From positions 1-38,646 of the IMG/VR virus record IMGVR_UViG_3300017745_000023: a stretch of DNA of 38,646 nucleotides; one strand, written 5' to 3'. Shown here one piece after another: positions 12,498 to 38,155 of the stretch. This stretch comes from a virus. Numbering within the stretch: the stretch's first letter is position 1; each line of letters begins with the position of its first letter. Under the pieces are notes generated by a model that saw only the letters and a program-made list of their open reading frames with translations, was not told the origin of the DNA and did no database searches. Position numbers and translations under genes: made by a program.

Positions 12498-13108
12498 TAA
12501 TAGAATCACATACATTACCGTTATTTCCAACAGTGGTTCAAAAGATAGTTGTTGACTATGATTTTAAAGAATTAAAAGAAACAGTTCAAAGCTTAGAATA
12601 TAGAGACATAGAAACAGACTTACCTAATCCTCCTCAAGTATCACATGATTTTTATTTATTAGATAAGCATCAAAAAGAAAAGAGTTTGTTTAAGGACATA
12701 TTTGATAGACACTATAAAGAAGATGTTTTTCAATATCACAGCACTGATTTTAAGATAACAACCTCTTGGTCCACCAAGACAGGTCAAGGAGCATACGGAG
12801 GTCATTATCATAGACATAAGAATTGTATGTTCTGTGGTGTTTTTTATTTTGATAATTTAAAGACTCCAATAATATTTAACGGACAAAATATAATAGATGA
12901 GGATATATTGGTCAATGAACCTACCTCTTGGAATGTTTATAATTCAAGAGAAATAAAAATTTTTCCCACAGCTAATACTTTGTATTTATTTCCTAGTTAT
13001 TTACAGCACAGGATAGGAAAGAACGAAGAGGACCAAGTAAGATATTCTTTAGCATTTAATCTTTTTCCTGTAGGAGTTTTTGGTAAACTAGATTCGGAGT
13101 TAAAATGA
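12494..13108 (+). CDS. 2OG-Fe(II) oxygenase, 2OG-FeII_Oxy_5 type
   Basis: This 204-residue protein has a GTG start (GTGA overlap). It carries the N-terminal LFPTVV motif of the family, then SWSTKT, a His-rich metal strand HYHRHKN (residues 104-110) before CGVFYF, the late strand LYLFPSYLQHRIG with H172, and DQVRYSLAFNLFPVG with R183. It is clearly related to the gene at 15578: both share LFP near the start, GVFYx, FPSxLxH, DQVRxSLAFN and a GKxD-type end. It is the last oxygenase before the halogenase, joined to it by an ATGA overlap. Confidence 0.86.
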   Translation: MIIESHTLPLFPTVVQKIVVDYDFKELKETVQSLEYRDIETDLPNPPQVSHDFYLLDKHQKEKSLFKDIFDRHYKEDVFQYHSTDFKITTSWSTKTGQGAYGGHYHRHKNCMFCGVFYFDNLKTPIIFNGQNIIDEDILVNEPTSWNVYNSREIKIFPTANTLYLFPSYLQHRIGKNEEDQVRYSLAFNLFPVGVFGKLDSELK

Positions 13109-14595
13109 AAATTTGTATACTAGGTGGTGGCACAGCAGGTTTTATGACTGCAGCAACATTGGTCAAATTATTTCCACAACATGAGATAAAACTAATAGAG
13201 TCCCCTCAGGAAAAAACTGTCGGTGTTGGAGAGAGCACAATATTAGGTTTTAAGGCATGGCTTAATCTTTTAGATATTAAAGACGAAGACTTTATGAAGG
13301 ATTGTAACGCAATTTACAAACTTAGTATAAAATTTACTGATTTTTATAAAAAAGGTGAGAGCTTTCATTATCCATTTGGAGAACTTAAATATCCATTGGA
13401 CGATTGGTGGCTATGTAAGATAGCTAATCCTGATTTACCCAACGATACTTATGCCTCTTATAACTATGAAGCTATGACTCAAATAGAACAAGGCTTGATG
13501 TATGAACACTCTGATTTTAAAAATGAGACTGCTTATCATTTTGATGCAAAACTTTTTGCAGATTGGCTTAAAAACAAATACTGCATACCTAAAGGATTGA
13601 AATATGTCTCTGAACATATCGAAGATATAAAACAAGATGATGATGGAATAAAATCACTAAATGGAAAACACGAGGCTGATCTATATATAGACTGTACAGG
13701 TTTTAAATCTATGTTACTTGGAGAAACTCTTAAGGAACCATTTGAATCCTATGAAGATTTACTACCAAATAATTCAGCTTGGGCAACTAGAATACCTTAC
13801 AAAGACAAGGATAAAGAATTATTACCCTACACAAATTGCACTGCTTATAACAATGGATGGATATGGAATATACCTTTGTGGAATAGAATTGGTACAGGTT
13901 ATGTTTATTCAGATAAGTTTACTAGTGATGAAGATGCACTGTCAGACTTTCACAATTATCTAGGCATAAAAACAGATTTAGAATTTAACAAAATAAAAAT
14001 GAGAGTAGGTATACACAAAAGACTTTTTGTAAAAAATGTATGTGCTGTTGGTTTGTCTGCTGGTTTTATTGAACCCTTGGAGAGCAATGGTTTATACACT
14101 GTTCATCAATTTTTAATTAAACTTGTAAGACAAATGCAAAGAGAAAAAATAAGTCAATGGGACAAAGACAATTACACATTCGGTTGTAAAAAAATATTTA
14201 AACCTTTTGCTGATTTTGTAGCTCTACATTACGCTTTATCTCATAGAACTGACACACCTTATTGGAAAGCTAATTTCAACAAAACTTGGGAGGAAAGATT
14301 ATACACGCTAGAACCTACATCGGTCTATACGCTTCTTAATCACGCTTTTTTAAGAGACGAAAACTTCTCTTTTGACACACAGGGTGGTGCACACTGTATA
14401 GCAACAGGTATGAATTGGAAACCAAATGATGAAAATATGGCAAAGCTACAGAACAATATACAGTTGAGTGAGATAGTAGACAAAGCAAAAGACGTATTAG
14501 GTGAATTACAAAACAGAAAAGAAAAATGGAAAGAGGAATGTGAAGAAGAGGGCGTGTCTTTTCATGACTTTCACAAACACAATGTTTATTACTAA
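13105..14595 (+). CDS. Flavin-dependent tryptophan-halogenase-family enzyme
   Basis: This 496-residue protein has the full signature of FADH2-dependent halogenases. Present are the dinucleotide-binding GGGTAG (residues 7-12), GVGEST (40-45), the catalytic-Lys region CNAIYKLSIKF with K72 (equivalent to PrnA Lys79), the diagnostic WxWxIP motif WIWNIP (252-257), and GLSAGFIEPLESNGL (316-330), which holds the conserved Glu near the active site. Length is close to the usual 500-540. Such enzymes make hypohalous acid that is channelled to the Lys to halogenate indole or other substrates; a flavin reductase, not seen here, must come from the host. It is ATGA-coupled to the oxygenase before it. The real substrate may be a peptide rather than free tryptophan. 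Confidence 0.92.
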   Translation: MKICILGGGTAGFMTAATLVKLFPQHEIKLIESPQEKTVGVGESTILGFKAWLNLLDIKDEDFMKDCNAIYKLSIKFTDFYKKGESFHYPFGELKYPLDDWWLCKIANPDLPNDTYASYNYEAMTQIEQGLMYEHSDFKNETAYHFDAKLFADWLKNKYCIPKGLKYVSEHIEDIKQDDDGIKSLNGKHEADLYIDCTGFKSMLLGETLKEPFESYEDLLPNNSAWATRIPYKDKDKELLPYTNCTAYNNGWIWNIPLWNRIGTGYVYSDKFTSDEDALSDFHNYLGIKTDLEFNKIKMRVGIHKRLFVKNVCAVGLSAGFIEPLESNGLYTVHQFLIKLVRQMQREKISQWDKDNYTFGCKKIFKPFADFVALHYALSHRTDTPYWKANFNKTWEERLYTLEPTSVYTLLNHAFLRDENFSFDTQGGAHCIATGMNWKPNDENMAKLQNNIQLSEIVDKAKDVLGELQNRKEKWKEECEEEGVSFHDFHKHNVYY

Positions 14596-28786: not shown

Positions 28787-29867
28787 GTGCGTAACAAACT
28801 CTCTCCTTATGTTTTTCTCTGAGCTCTTTAGAGTAACCCCCAAAGTTAGGAGACTTTTTTTTACCTGAAGCAATTCTATTTAATTCTTTTTCGTAGTCTT
28901 CTTTTCTGTTTTGTTTGTTATGTGTAGTAGGTCTCCACTTCTCAGGGTGAGCCTCTCGATATTCACCAAACCTAGGATGAGCTGTTTTAGAAAAGAAACG
29001 ATGACCGATGTTCGTGAATTGTTGTGCAACTGCCTCTGATAATCTAACCCCTAAACCTAAACCTTGAAAATCAGGAAGTATCACTGTCCTGTGTTCCCTC
29101 CATGCTTTTTCTTTGATTGTTCCTGAGGGGAAGAAGATGACTGAAGCAAATCCAACTGTAGTTCCTTCCCATGTTCCAAGCCAACATCGTGATGCGTTAC
29201 TGATGTCTGCTGTGAGATAGTGATGGTCAGCGAAGTATGGCCATATTTTAGGGGAACAAGGAACGACTTCCAAAACGACCTTGGGTCGCCTAAGTAACCC
29301 CCTTGTCACAACTTTGCTTGAGTTTGTGTCATAAACCCAATCAGGTTGTAACCAATCAATGATGTCATAATGACAAGAAGCAAAGACAACATTTTTAATT
29401 TTTTTATTTCTTATAAATTTTTGTAAGGCATTGGAACAAGACTTAGCTACATTACGATCAACTACACTAGTAAACTCATCTATAACTGCGTTGTCCTTTA
29501 CACGTCTAGCCAAGTCAGACCTAAACTTTTCTCCTGTACTCAAAACATGATAGGGCCTCATCCAAGAGGGTATAGTATTAAAACCAACACAAGATAATCT
29601 CTCCTGAGCCTCCTCAGGACTATCAAAATGAGAACAAACTGCTTTGTTTTTATCCCAAACAATATTTTCTTCCTGACCAAACTCTTTCAACAAACTTGAC
29701 TTACCACTTCCTGAAGCTCCCACTATGAGTCCTATGTTAAAGTCCTGTGTGGGTTTTTGAAAGTCAGGTAAAGTAAATTCTGTTTGACCATTAAATTCAT
29801 AGTCAAACATTCTACTAATCTCACTAGTGATATTATCTACTTGAACTTGTGATGTTAATTTTTTCAA
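28770..29867 (-). CDS. ABC-type ATPase fused to a GNAT-like acyltransferase
   Basis: This 365-residue protein is a two-domain fusion. Residues ~45-180 are an ABC ATPase: Walker A GASGSGKSS (50-58), signature LSTGEKFRSDLARR (109-122), Walker B AVIDEF (127-132) and an H-loop His166. Residues ~200-315 look like a GNAT acyltransferase: HHYLTADISNASRCWLG, VGFASVIFFPSGTI, then an acyl-CoA-binding QGLGLG loop (268-273) and a closing SKTAHPRFGEYR...W block. The HYL and HPRxGxYR patterns recall Mom-like DNA-modification acyltransferases, from memory. It sits between primase and helicase with overlaps of 4 and 17 bases, so a role on replicated DNA, such as base modification, is plausible. There are no membrane segments. 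Confidence 0.82.
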   Translation of the reverse strand: MKKLTSQVQVDNITSEISRMFDYEFNGQTEFTLPDFQKPTQDFNIGLIVGASGSGKSSLLKEFGQEENIVWDKNKAVCSHFDSPEEAQERLSCVGFNTIPSWMRPYHVLSTGEKFRSDLARRVKDNAVIDEFTSVVDRNVAKSCSNALQKFIRNKKIKNVVFASCHYDIIDWLQPDWVYDTNSSKVVTRGLLRRPKVVLEVVPCSPKIWPYFADHHYLTADISNASRCWLGTWEGTTVGFASVIFFPSGTIKEKAWREHRTVILPDFQGLGLGVRLSEAVAQQFTNIGHRFFSKTAHPRFGEYREAHPEKWRPTTHNKQNRKEDYEKELNRIASGKKKSPNFGGYSKELREKHKERVCYAHEYIG

Positions 29868-31423
29868 AACGGTATATCCTCCTCTATATCTTTCTGTTGC
29901 TTCATGTCAGGAACCTCAAGGTCAACCTCATCGATTGTTAACTGTTTTATTTTCCAAAGCCTGACTCTACTATTTTTAATGCTCCTAATTAAGTCTTCTG
30001 CATTATACTCTTCTTTAAGTCTCATTGTCACCCAAGGTCTTGTCTCTTTGAAATCATTTCTCTTCAAGTGGTCCATCAAATCTTTTAAAGCAAAATATGT
30101 AAAGCCCTCTTCGGTATATGACTTACCTAAAAATATGTCAGCTATAGTCAGAGCCTCTCCTTGATGTAAACAAAACTCTTCTAGTAATTCTTTGAACTCA
30201 CCTTTTTTTGTAACCTCTTCAGGTGGATAGTCTATTGATATTGACTCGAATAAATCACTATAAGTTTGATTCCACTCAGCGGCACTCATGTTCATAATAC
30301 CTGAGTTGAGTTGTTCTAAACAAGCCTGAATAATTTTTTTATGAGTCATTAAATCTTCGGTATTACCTATCTCAATTCGTCTATCATCTACGTTAAGAAA
30401 ATATCTAGGTGGATCAGACTTATAAACTTTTAAATCGGAGTAAACAGGATGATCTCTATCTCCTTCACTGCCAACACCAAACTTTCTTTTTTTGCATAAT
30501 CTTTTATTACATAGAGACTCAATCGGTGGTTGTGAACACCTATACATGTATTTAGGTGCACCGTTATTATCGCTCTGACTTACTTGTTTAATTACAATTA
30601 AAACTTCATCAGATTTCAAAGGTGGAACTATATAACTTCTATTGTACTCCTCGATTAATTCTTTGTAATTATCAGGATCTGCTTTACGATAATATACGCC
30701 TACGTTGAACAAGGCATTATTCCGGGAGCCATCGGAAACACCCTGTTCAGTTAGTATTTGTAGGCATGGAGGTCCGTCTTTAATAACCTCGTTCTTGAAA
30801 TCGGTTTTAATCGATTTAATAGAAGCAACAACAAGGCCATCGTAGTAAGAAAGAAACTGTTCTAAACTTAATGCATCACCCACATCATTTAATCCATAAC
30901 GACTTCTGCCATGATAGGGTAGATTAATCCAACTTCCTGTATCTCTTTTTTCCTCTCCCTCTCTTTGATACAGTTCTATTTGTTTTGGAAATACTTCAGC
31001 TTTAGGATAGCCAATGGCAGTTGCCATCTCACTTAGTTTAGTCTGCATGTCCTTAGCTGAAACATATTGTTTAGTGAATAAGTATAAATGTGCTCCACCA
31101 CTTTTAGATAGACACATTACTAAAGGAAACTTTTTTTGTTTTATTTTTTTAAGTAATAGTTTGTGGTCAAGTGGATAAACATCAATATCTATCGCACCAA
31201 ACTTACATTGATCATCATCGTTTATAGGAACTATTCCCATTGCGGGATATTCTCCATTTAAATGTAATTGAAATTTTTCTATTGACGGTGGCTCGTGGAC
31301 CGTTTTCATATGAGCCTCGACCTTTACGCCTTCTTGTGGCTCATTTTTTTTCTCGAATACTCCATGGGCTCTCTCTAGCCCTGTGAATATATCTTTAAAT
31401 TTAGTTACTAATTTTAGCTCCAT
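29864..31423 (-). CDS. Archaeo-eukaryotic-type (AEP) DNA primase
   Basis: This 519-residue protein has the AEP catalytic core: FGAIDIDVYPLD with D79-x-D81 and LSKSGGAHLYLF (105-116) with the S-x-H motif, then a GSWINLPYHGRSRYG strand. A Cys cluster (CSQPPIESLCNKRLCKKRKFG, about residues 300-320) forms a likely zinc-binding knuckle, and the C-terminal third is helical. The last residues, KDIEEDIPF, copy the acidic tip of bacterial SSB. It synthesises primers for the polymerase. The ATG has TGAGG six bases upstream; that ribosome binding site sits right at the foot of the folded spacer at 31434-31549. It overlaps the ABC-GNAT gene by 4 bases. Confidence 0.85.
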   Translation of the reverse strand: MELKLVTKFKDIFTGLERAHGVFEKKNEPQEGVKVEAHMKTVHEPPSIEKFQLHLNGEYPAMGIVPINDDDQCKFGAIDIDVYPLDHKLLLKKIKQKKFPLVMCLSKSGGAHLYLFTKQYVSAKDMQTKLSEMATAIGYPKAEVFPKQIELYQREGEEKRDTGSWINLPYHGRSRYGLNDVGDALSLEQFLSYYDGLVVASIKSIKTDFKNEVIKDGPPCLQILTEQGVSDGSRNNALFNVGVYYRKADPDNYKELIEEYNRSYIVPPLKSDEVLIVIKQVSQSDNNGAPKYMYRCSQPPIESLCNKRLCKKRKFGVGSEGDRDHPVYSDLKVYKSDPPRYFLNVDDRRIEIGNTEDLMTHKKIIQACLEQLNSGIMNMSAAEWNQTYSDLFESISIDYPPEEVTKKGEFKELLEEFCLHQGEALTIADIFLGKSYTEEGFTYFALKDLMDHLKRNDFKETRPWVTMRLKEEYNAEDLIRSIKNSRVRLWKIKQLTIDEVDLEVPDMKQQKDIEEDIPF

Positions 31424-31433
31424 AGTACCTCAT

Positions 31434-31549
31434 GTTAATAGCTTGTAGGCCAAGACACGAACCGAAAGGAGGCCGGAAAAGTCATGTCTTGGCCAAGTGA
31501 GAGCGTTAGAGGAGGAAAGAATCCACGCTCTCGTTACGCGGCTATTAAT
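31434..31549. other. Three-way-junction element filling the SSB-primase spacer
   Basis: The spacer folds as three perfect helices. P1 pairs TTAATAGC (31435-31442) with GCTATTAA (31541-31548). P2 pairs GGCCAAGACA (31448-31457) with TGTCTTGGCC (31485-31494). P3 pairs GAGAGCGT (31499-31506) with ACGCTCTC (31525-31532). Junction strands are 5, 4 and 8 bases; loops are 27 and 18 bases. P1 ends one base from the SSB-like stop codon and directly abuts the primase ribosome binding site. G+C is well above the surroundings. On the transcribed (-) strand both loops carry CCTCC, one as CCTCCTTT. This could be a structured mRNA leader, a small RNA or a replication-origin structure; strand and role are not determined. 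Confidence 0.6.
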
Positions 31550-32379
31550 CAGAACGGAATGTTATCACCGTTCTGAGAGGACTCCCCTTGCGGGGAACTT
31601 GTTTCATCTTCCTGAGGAGCAACTTTTAACTCCCCACTGTGAATTGTTTTTTCGAATTGACTAGCGTCAGCTAAAATGTCCTCAATCTTAACTAAACCTA
31701 GTTCGTCAATCCATTTATTTTGACTGACAACCCAACCGTGCCAACTACCCTGATCATTTTTTTCAGGTCTACCTGACAAGTTGTACGACATTGCAAAGTC
31801 TTTTGGTTGGTAAATCTCATCACCATCAACTCTTCTTTGATTTGACATGATTGAGTTCCACTGCTTTGACTTCTTAAGTTGTGAACCCTTCATTTTTATT
31901 AGGGCCTTGTACCAACTCTGACCATCAATAACGATAACATAATGCTCAGCAGTGTTCTCAACATAAGTATCACCTTTCCCAACAAAGCGATCTTTCTTAT
32001 CGTCACCACGAACAATTTTACCTTCCTTTTGAAAAGTTTGAAACTCTTCAGGGAGATATTCATTTACAGGGGCCTTATTTTTAGTTCTGTCATTATACCA
32101 TTCTACATATCTCCTTCTATAGTAGACAGGCAACACGGTTAATACATCACTACAGTTCTCTGTAACGGTATTAAATATTTGTCCCTTCTTAGCTTCTTTT
32201 ATAAATTTATCGTTCTCCTCATCAACTTGAGGTGAACCCTTACTTAACATATTTAAATAAGGTATTGAGTAATCCTCAGCTTCTCTTTTTGAAAGTGGAG
32301 CTGATTTTAAAACTGCACTTAATTGTGCAACTGCCTTAGTTTCGCTTTTCGCTACTTGCTTTTTTACTGTCTCTGTCAT
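31549..32379 (-). CDS. SSB-like single-strand DNA-binding protein
   Basis: This 276-residue protein has a core beginning YSIPYLNMLSKGSPQVDEE, then KKGQIFNTVTENCSDVLTVLPVYYRRRYVEW, a pattern shared by a widespread family of phage proteins often placed at the ssDNA-binding position. A further basic and aromatic block is HYVIVIDGQSWYKALIKMKGSQLKKSKQWN. The last ~40 residues are low-complexity and acidic and end NGDNIPF, matching the protein-docking tip of bacterial SSB (DDDIPF). The gene order (next to primase, in a replication operon) supports the call. The 3' end also contains a short hairpin (CAGAACGG at 31550-31557 with CCGTTCTG at 31568-31575). No OB fold can be proven by eye. Confidence 0.68.
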   Translation of the reverse strand: MTETVKKQVAKSETKAVAQLSAVLKSAPLSKREAEDYSIPYLNMLSKGSPQVDEENDKFIKEAKKGQIFNTVTENCSDVLTVLPVYYRRRYVEWYNDRTKNKAPVNEYLPEEFQTFQKEGKIVRGDDKKDRFVGKGDTYVENTAEHYVIVIDGQSWYKALIKMKGSQLKKSKQWNSIMSNQRRVDGDEIYQPKDFAMSYNLSGRPEKNDQGSWHGWVVSQNKWIDELGLVKIEDILADASQFEKTIHSGELKVAPQEDETSSPQGESSQNGDNIPF

Positions 32380-37649: not shown

Positions 37650-37833
37650 TGTCTTTCTCCTTTTTTACTCTAGTCACGTTAACAACTGCATGATCTTTGT
37701 TATCTACAACCTCAACTTTAATTTTTTCGTCAGGTTTTAGTTTAGCAGTCTCCATCTTTATGCCTTCATTAATAGCCTGAACTATATTATGCATGGCATC
37801 CTTCCAACCGTATTGATCCATTGGCCTCTTCAT
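37642..37833 (-). CDS. Small hypothetical protein (63 aa)
   Basis: Product MKRPMDQYGWKDAMHNIVQA with VEVVDNKDHAVVNVTRVKKE at the end. The start could instead be the ATG at 37821 (MDQYGWKD): AAAGG sits only one base before the ATG at 37833, whereas GAGG lies three bases before 37821. It overlaps the upstream gene by 47 bases, or 35 with the shorter start. Unknown function. Confidence 0.55.
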   Translation of the reverse strand: MKRPMDQYGWKDAMHNIVQAINEGIKMETAKLKPDEKIKVEVVDNKDHAVVNVTRVKKEKDND

Positions 37834-38155
37834 CCTTTCTTATTTCTGACTCTAGGTAGCTTTTAACTTCTAAAGTTCTATTGTTCTTGTTAAGTATTCT
37901 ATGCATAAAACCTGTGTTGTTATACATAAACATTTTTATCTTATCTATCTCCCACTCTAATGGATCAGATAAATAATTAAAAAGACTGTCTTTGTCTTTT
38001 TTGTAGACGTTGCGATGCTCTCCTGTAAAGATTGCTATCGCTTCGTAACTTCTCTCTTTGTGTTTAACAAAGATTAAAGTATCAGCTATTGGTAAACCCT
38101 TTGTATCTCCCAAATAGCCTCTGTGTATAGTCCACTCACTTGAAGTATGAGTCAT
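37787..38155 (-). CDS. Hypothetical protein (122 aa)
   Basis: The ATG at 38155 has GGAGG seven bases upstream, a strong site, and overlaps the previous gene by 20 bases. The product MTHTSSEWTIHRGYLGDTKG has ADTLIFVKHKERSYEAIAIFTG (mostly beta), then a helical half (LFNYLSDPLEWEIDKIKMFM) and a charged C-terminus. No motif is recognised. Confidence 0.62.
   Translation of the reverse strand: MTHTSSEWTIHRGYLGDTKGLPIADTLIFVKHKERSYEAIAIFTGEHRNVYKKDKDSLFNYLSDPLEWEIDKIKMFMYNNTGFMHRILNKNNRTLEVKSYLESEIRKDEEANGSIRLEGCHA

Follow-up and report, generated by a model that had tools for sequence, protein, structure and literature searches.

The stretch of DNA analysed here, called the window throughout, is the whole of IMG/VR virus record IMGVR_UViG_3300017745_000023 (38,646 nucleotides). 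Its minus strand carries a gene for an SSB-like protein and, downstream, one for an archaeo-eukaryotic-type primase, separated by a spacer of about 116-125 nt. For the upstream, Pam3_Gp34-like protein the PHROGs annotation is unknown function, and a search against the sequences of solved structures gave no match. However, the protein ends in a PF tip of the SSB C-terminal type, present in most relatives examined, and the top PDB matches of its AlphaFold model, although weak (best E 1.4e-3, probability 0.91, low TM), are chains of RPA and T4 gp32. On the strength of the tip and these model matches, the upstream protein is likely an SSB. The primase itself also carries an SSB-like tip, ending in EEDIPF, and the PF of this tip is nearly invariant in ten relatives.

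Read on the minus strand, which is the mRNA strand, the spacer forms a three-way junction whose helices P1, P2 and P3 have 8, 8 and 10 perfect pairs, at the place where a first, sequence-only reading had marked three perfect helices (Table 1). That reading had also described boundaries that meet a stop codon and a ribosome binding site. This is borne out: the 5′ side of P1 lies directly 3′ of the SSB stop codon (31551-31549), and its 3′ end lies about 11 nt upstream of the primase ATG (31423) and adjoins the GAGG Shine-Dalgarno sequence. As further proposed, the block is GC-rich (about 0.51 against about 0.35 around it) and its folding exceeds chance; the GC skew also flips at the spacer. The plus strand folds at -45.9 kcal/mol (z -6.2) and the minus strand with flanks at -47.5 kcal/mol (z -5.4), each value being matched by none of 200 dinucleotide shuffles. 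Folding of the single sequence does not distinguish the two strands; it is the comparative evidence that points to the minus strand as the structured one. A perfect small hairpin, UCCCCGCAAGGGGA, is found at 31583-31596 within the C-terminal codons of the SSB gene and is kept in several relatives.

Table 1. Genes and structural elements at the SSB-primase junction of the window
Feature	Position	Strand	Remarks
Upstream gene, SSB-like protein	31549..32379	-	PF23977 Pam3_Gp34, phrog_2402; C-terminal tip NGDNIPF
P0, small hairpin, last SSB codons into stop codon, CAGAACGG/CCGTTCTG	31550..31575	-	third-base covariation; moderate evidence
P1 5′ strand UUAAUAGC	31541..31548	-	31548-31541 pairs with 31442-31435, 8 bp; core pairs invariant in 19/19 sequences
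P2 5′ strand GAGAGCGU	31525..31532	-	31532-31525 pairs with 31506-31499, 8 bp; both-side changes in 8/11 pairs among relatives
L2, pyrimidine-rich loop with UUUCCUCCUC	31507..31524	-	CCUCC in about half of lineages; pyrimidine-rich in all
P2 3′ strand ACGCUCUC	31499..31506	-	pairing kept in comparative alignment
P3 5′ strand GGCCAAGACAUGA	31482..31494	-	31494-31482 pairs with 31460-31448, 10 perfect pairs, 13 when extended including one U-G; both-side changes in 10/14 pairs among relatives
L3, CUUUU and mini-stem CCGG...UCGG presenting GCCUCCUUUCG	31461..31481	-	complementary to Shine-Dalgarno sequences
P3 3′ strand UCGUGUCUUGGCC	31448..31460	-	pairing kept in comparative alignment
P1 3′ strand GCUAUUAA	31435..31442	-	core invariant in 19/19
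Primase Shine-Dalgarno GAGG, just outside P1	31428..31431	-	GAGG in 19/19 sequences
Downstream gene, archaeo-eukaryotic-type primase	29864..31423	-	AEP-TOTE, weak PriCT-1; phrog_21866; ends in IPF

A search with the primase gave 44 viral loci. Those with a primase identity of at least about 88 % and a spacer sequence share the same three-way junction architecture, and they yield a set of 19 distinct sequences, namely the window and IMG/VR relatives, the close relatives being all metagenomic. MAFFT misaligned P2 and the resulting RNAalifold consensus lacked this helix; hand segmentation and a covariance-model alignment were used instead. By hand segmentation P1 is nearly invariant, with 131 of 133 pairs Watson-Crick, while P2 has 186 Watson-Crick, 5 G-U and 3 other pairs and P3 has 201, 33 and 1. 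The constant parts are P1 (UAAUAGC/GCUAUUA), J12 (GCGUAA or CACAAA) and the loop of P3, with P2 and P3 rewritten around them.

A covariance model built from seven members (R1) recovers all 19 sequences at E <= 1e-7. In its alignment, which is fitted to the structure and so leans towards it, 95.8 % of helix cells are paired and 20 of 36 pairs show changes on both sides. Cells with double changes number 64 against 17.0 in shuffles, a count reached by none of 500 shuffles, and sliding the partner strand lowers pairing to 36-42 %. The hand-made table agrees, nearly every P2 and P3 position showing two to five standard pair types across ten lineages. Many of the loci are related, so that sequence counts overstate the independent events and the covariation rests on about ten lineages. 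The compensatory changes that the sequence-only reading proposed to look for in phages with the same flanking genes are thus present, and the spacer is a real three-armed RNA structure that is kept while its sequence changes.

Which strand folds can be read from the wobbles. On the mRNA strand P2 and P3 together hold 38 G-U pairs and no A-C pair; taking the helices from sense-strand folds somewhat favours G-U over A-C, yet no A-C occurs inside the helices. Were the opposite strand the folding one, its G-T wobbles would show up here as A-C, and therefore it is the mRNA strand that is under selection. On this comparative evidence the mRNA (minus) strand is the folding strand. Hairpin P0, in the last SSB codons, appears to be kept as well: across 23 sequences its synonymous third bases are T-A in 14, C-G in 5, T-G in 4 and C-A in none, a covariation that is moderate evidence when taken by lineage (Fisher p 0.018).

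The junction is confined to one genomic context. Model R1 finds exactly one copy in 9 of 16 viral records, always between the SSB-like and primase genes, and no match in the records behind L028, L031, L034 and L035 or in phages DSL-LC04, 023Pt_psg01 and HTVC027P. Further scans gave only the SSB-primase spacer context plus chance matches. Candidate copies elsewhere were discarded: 21 pattern matches in bacterial genomes include none that forms the junction, and the single viral matches outside the SSB-primase context, L100 from a scan for the L3 motif and L099 from a looser P1 pattern, fold otherwise. A scan of the window against Rfam found no family match, with only sub-threshold, chance-level matches at 31400-31600, and no description of such an element turned up in the literature searches. 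The junction is a well-supported addition to the structured RNA families, one that Rfam lacks, and comes from phages known here from environmental sequence only.

The SSB-primase spacer carries structure well beyond this clade. A wider set comprised 66 spacers, of which 7 belong to the junction clade and the others reach down to about 38 % primase identity. Their median z is -2.9, compared to -0.4 for 39 spacers elsewhere in the same loci (p 2e-9). A z of -2 or lower is reached in 44 of the 66; for the remaining 22 the gain over shuffled sequence is not significant. The sense RNA gives the better fold in 40 spacers and the antisense in 15. The distant relatives have a different hairpin, of unrelated sequence and shape, in a spacer of 38-136 nt. 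Outside the junction clade the median distance from the SSB stop to the start of the stem is 7 nt (middle half 5-9.5) and that from the end of the stem to the primase ATG is 18 nt (middle half 15-20.5), and in most relatives the structure stands between co-oriented cistrons, after the stop codon and before the ribosome-binding site. HTVC027P/HTCC1062, a cultured relative for which transcriptomes are published (PMC12753301), likewise has a hairpin in its spacer. About a third of the hairpins in distant relatives look like terminators, at least five of the eight bases after the stem being T in 18 of 56 sense cases and in 1 of 56 antisense equivalents. What is conserved in the spacer, as these sequences tell it, is the position and presence of a structure and not its sequence; thus the junction of the window is one clade's version.

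The spacers of loci L112, L113, L119, L133, L136, L142, L144, L156, L165 and L174 share a stem of the GGGGCC...GGCCCC type with a conserved GAAAG/GAGUA internal loop. This loop resembles the bulged-G (loop E, sarcin-ricin) motif, and these spacers are possibly a second RNA family at the same position.

The rule that emerges is that phages with the SSB-primase pair generally keep some RNA structure between the two genes, with varying sequence and architecture, a pattern that suggests selection, acting through RNA, on the dosage of SSB relative to primase. We infer, with a probability of roughly one half, that the spacer of the window is the clade-specific form of a conserved cis-acting intercistronic mRNA element that keeps primase expression below that of SSB. 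The junction folds in the SSB-primase mRNA, after the stop codon of SSB and ahead of the ribosome-binding site of primase, where it could cap the SSB message against 3′ nucleases, might mark a processing site, and would separate SSB translation from primase initiation. The outcome would be much SSB and little primase per transcript, in keeping with an SSB presumably needed in bulk and a primase needed in few copies. In many relatives partial termination may be a further means of dividing expression. The sequence-only reading had suggested a structured RNA controlling primase: the structured RNA in the SSB-primase message stands, on covariation, sense-strand wobbles and the same flanking genes, and the control of primase is plausible.

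Comparable arrangements are known. Intercistronic stem-loops set operon stoichiometry in the cip-cel operon, and processing of rpsU-dnaG-rpoD is a further example, as cited in PMC10311766. Like the stem-loops of cip-cel and rpsU-dnaG-rpoD, the phage elements are strong, sequence-unrelated stem-loops between cistrons of one transcript and, as in rpsU-dnaG-rpoD, they lie upstream of a primase gene. Unlike those, the phage element covaries as a three-way junction, its P1 is invariant and it displays an anti-Shine-Dalgarno loop; it is known from sequence alone. Intrinsic terminators and attenuators are matched by the third of distant relatives that have a GC hairpin and a U tract in the same place. 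In contrast, the three-way-junction clade lacks a U tract behind P1, which in the window is followed by CAUGAGG, and therefore the element of this clade, unlike that of many relatives, is not a plain terminator.

An unspecific barrier leaves the near-constant sequences of P1 and L3 unexplained. L3 holds CCUCCUU in all ten lineages and GCCUCCUUUCG in eight of them while P2 and P3 change, and displays it on a mini-stem of 3-4 bp, in which pair 101-116 is C-G, U-G or U-A. The anti-Shine-Dalgarno end of 16S rRNA is CCUCCUUU(C) in many bacteria, and we take GCCUCCUUUCG to equal this end. The anti-Shine-Dalgarno loop is a clade-specific addition. Within the proposed cis-acting element, the exposed loop may compete with 16S rRNA for the GAGG close by and so further reduce initiation at the primase gene. 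A bolder and rather doubtful extension is that the junction displays a copy of the 16S 3′ end (CCUCCUUUC) as a decoy or competitor, either in cis, where it would compete with ribosomes for the Shine-Dalgarno of primase, or in trans once processed, capturing Shine-Dalgarno sequences or factors that bind the 16S tail. Complementarity of L3 to the Shine-Dalgarno is always present but without covariation. In a sub-clade (L010, L011 and L016-L021) J31 contains AGGAGG or GGAGAGG, which can pair with CCUCC of L2 or L3 over up to 7-8 bp, for example AUAGGAG with CUCCUAU in L018; this possible pseudoknot is absent from the window. As a general feature, pairing of L2 CCUCC with J31 AGGAG was rejected, as it fits only lineages F-I.

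The same motifs could also serve translational control in cis, which we consider unlikely. Here the CCUCC loop (L3, sometimes L2) would form a pseudoknot with the primase GAGG, or SSB codons would sequester GAGG, such that primase is translated only during SSB translation. GAGG and CCUCC are both found in 19 of 19 sequences, P1 touches the stop codon and the ribosome-binding region, and GAGG is predicted to be mostly paired in 17 of 19 full-context folds, usually with CCUC in SSB codons. However, when synonymous SSB codons were randomised in 12 sequences they sequestered GAGG about equally in most lineages (mean 0.71-0.94, with L002 and L005 as the only exceptions); pairing with SSB codons is therefore not evidently selected, and this form of the explanation was set aside. 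Moreover, bases beside GAGG change without the loop following, and an anti-Shine-Dalgarno loop matches any Shine-Dalgarno.

The sequence-only reading had also named a processed small RNA. In this improbable alternative the mRNA would give rise to a trans-acting sRNA with anti-Shine-Dalgarno loops that block ribosome-binding sites or act as mimics of the 16S 3′ end, in the manner of alpha-r14 and cuckoo RNAs. The stems differ but their loops retain CCUCCUU(UCG), which is the pattern of the alpha-r14 sRNAs, with a conserved anti-Shine-Dalgarno loop motif on stems of changing sequence (PMC10746234). The likeness extends to the alphaproteobacterial trans-sRNAs alpha-r14, NfeR1 and cuckoo in general, and several window genes have a long complementary Shine-Dalgarno, the best being AAAGGAGG of the gene at 37787-38155. 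Unlike these RNAs, the phage element is no stand-alone gene: it is a three-way junction closed by P1, its intercistronic position is always the same, P1 abuts the stop codon, and it has no terminator. Promoter-like matches are as many as in shuffles, and none makes a convincing promoter of its own. Its motif is also CCUCCUUU and not CCUCCUCCC; where alpha-r14 and cuckoo have CCUCCUCCC in each loop, the phage L3 has CCUCCUUUCG and L2 has CCUCCUC or none.

The T4 SSB, gp32, is autoregulated through an mRNA pseudoknot in its leader. By analogy the spacer might be where SSB, primase or a ribosomal protein binds to autoregulate the operon, although we regard this as quite doubtful. An invariant P1 with near-constant J12 (GCGUAA) and L3 is the expected look of a protein site, both flanking genes encode nucleic-acid-binding proteins and, as in T4, a structured RNA lies in a phage SSB message. 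However, relatives with similar proteins have unrelated hairpins, and the phage element stands after the SSB stop and before primase instead of in the leader.

Strong hairpins form in DNA too, and the sequence-only reading had also offered a DNA structure that serves as an origin or as a landing site for primase. Although the spacer adjoins the primase gene and same-strand single-stranded DNA tolerates G-T wobbles, which makes the G-U over A-C bias compatible with it, this is very improbable, because the relatives keep RNA-like, sense-oriented hairpins at fixed distances from the stop codon and ATG, with sense-oriented U tracts, and these hairpins turn over to unrelated sequences.

For the reading that we prefer, an intercistronic element dividing expression, the relatives offer a natural series (simple hairpin, terminator, looped stem and three-way junction) for testing intercistronic RNA and protein ratios. 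Elsewhere in the window, on the plus strand of the opposite genome arm, lie genes for a tryptophan halogenase (PF04820, E 3e-102) and for a Nol-like carbamoyltransferase, the pair being found at 13105-14595 and 939-2426.
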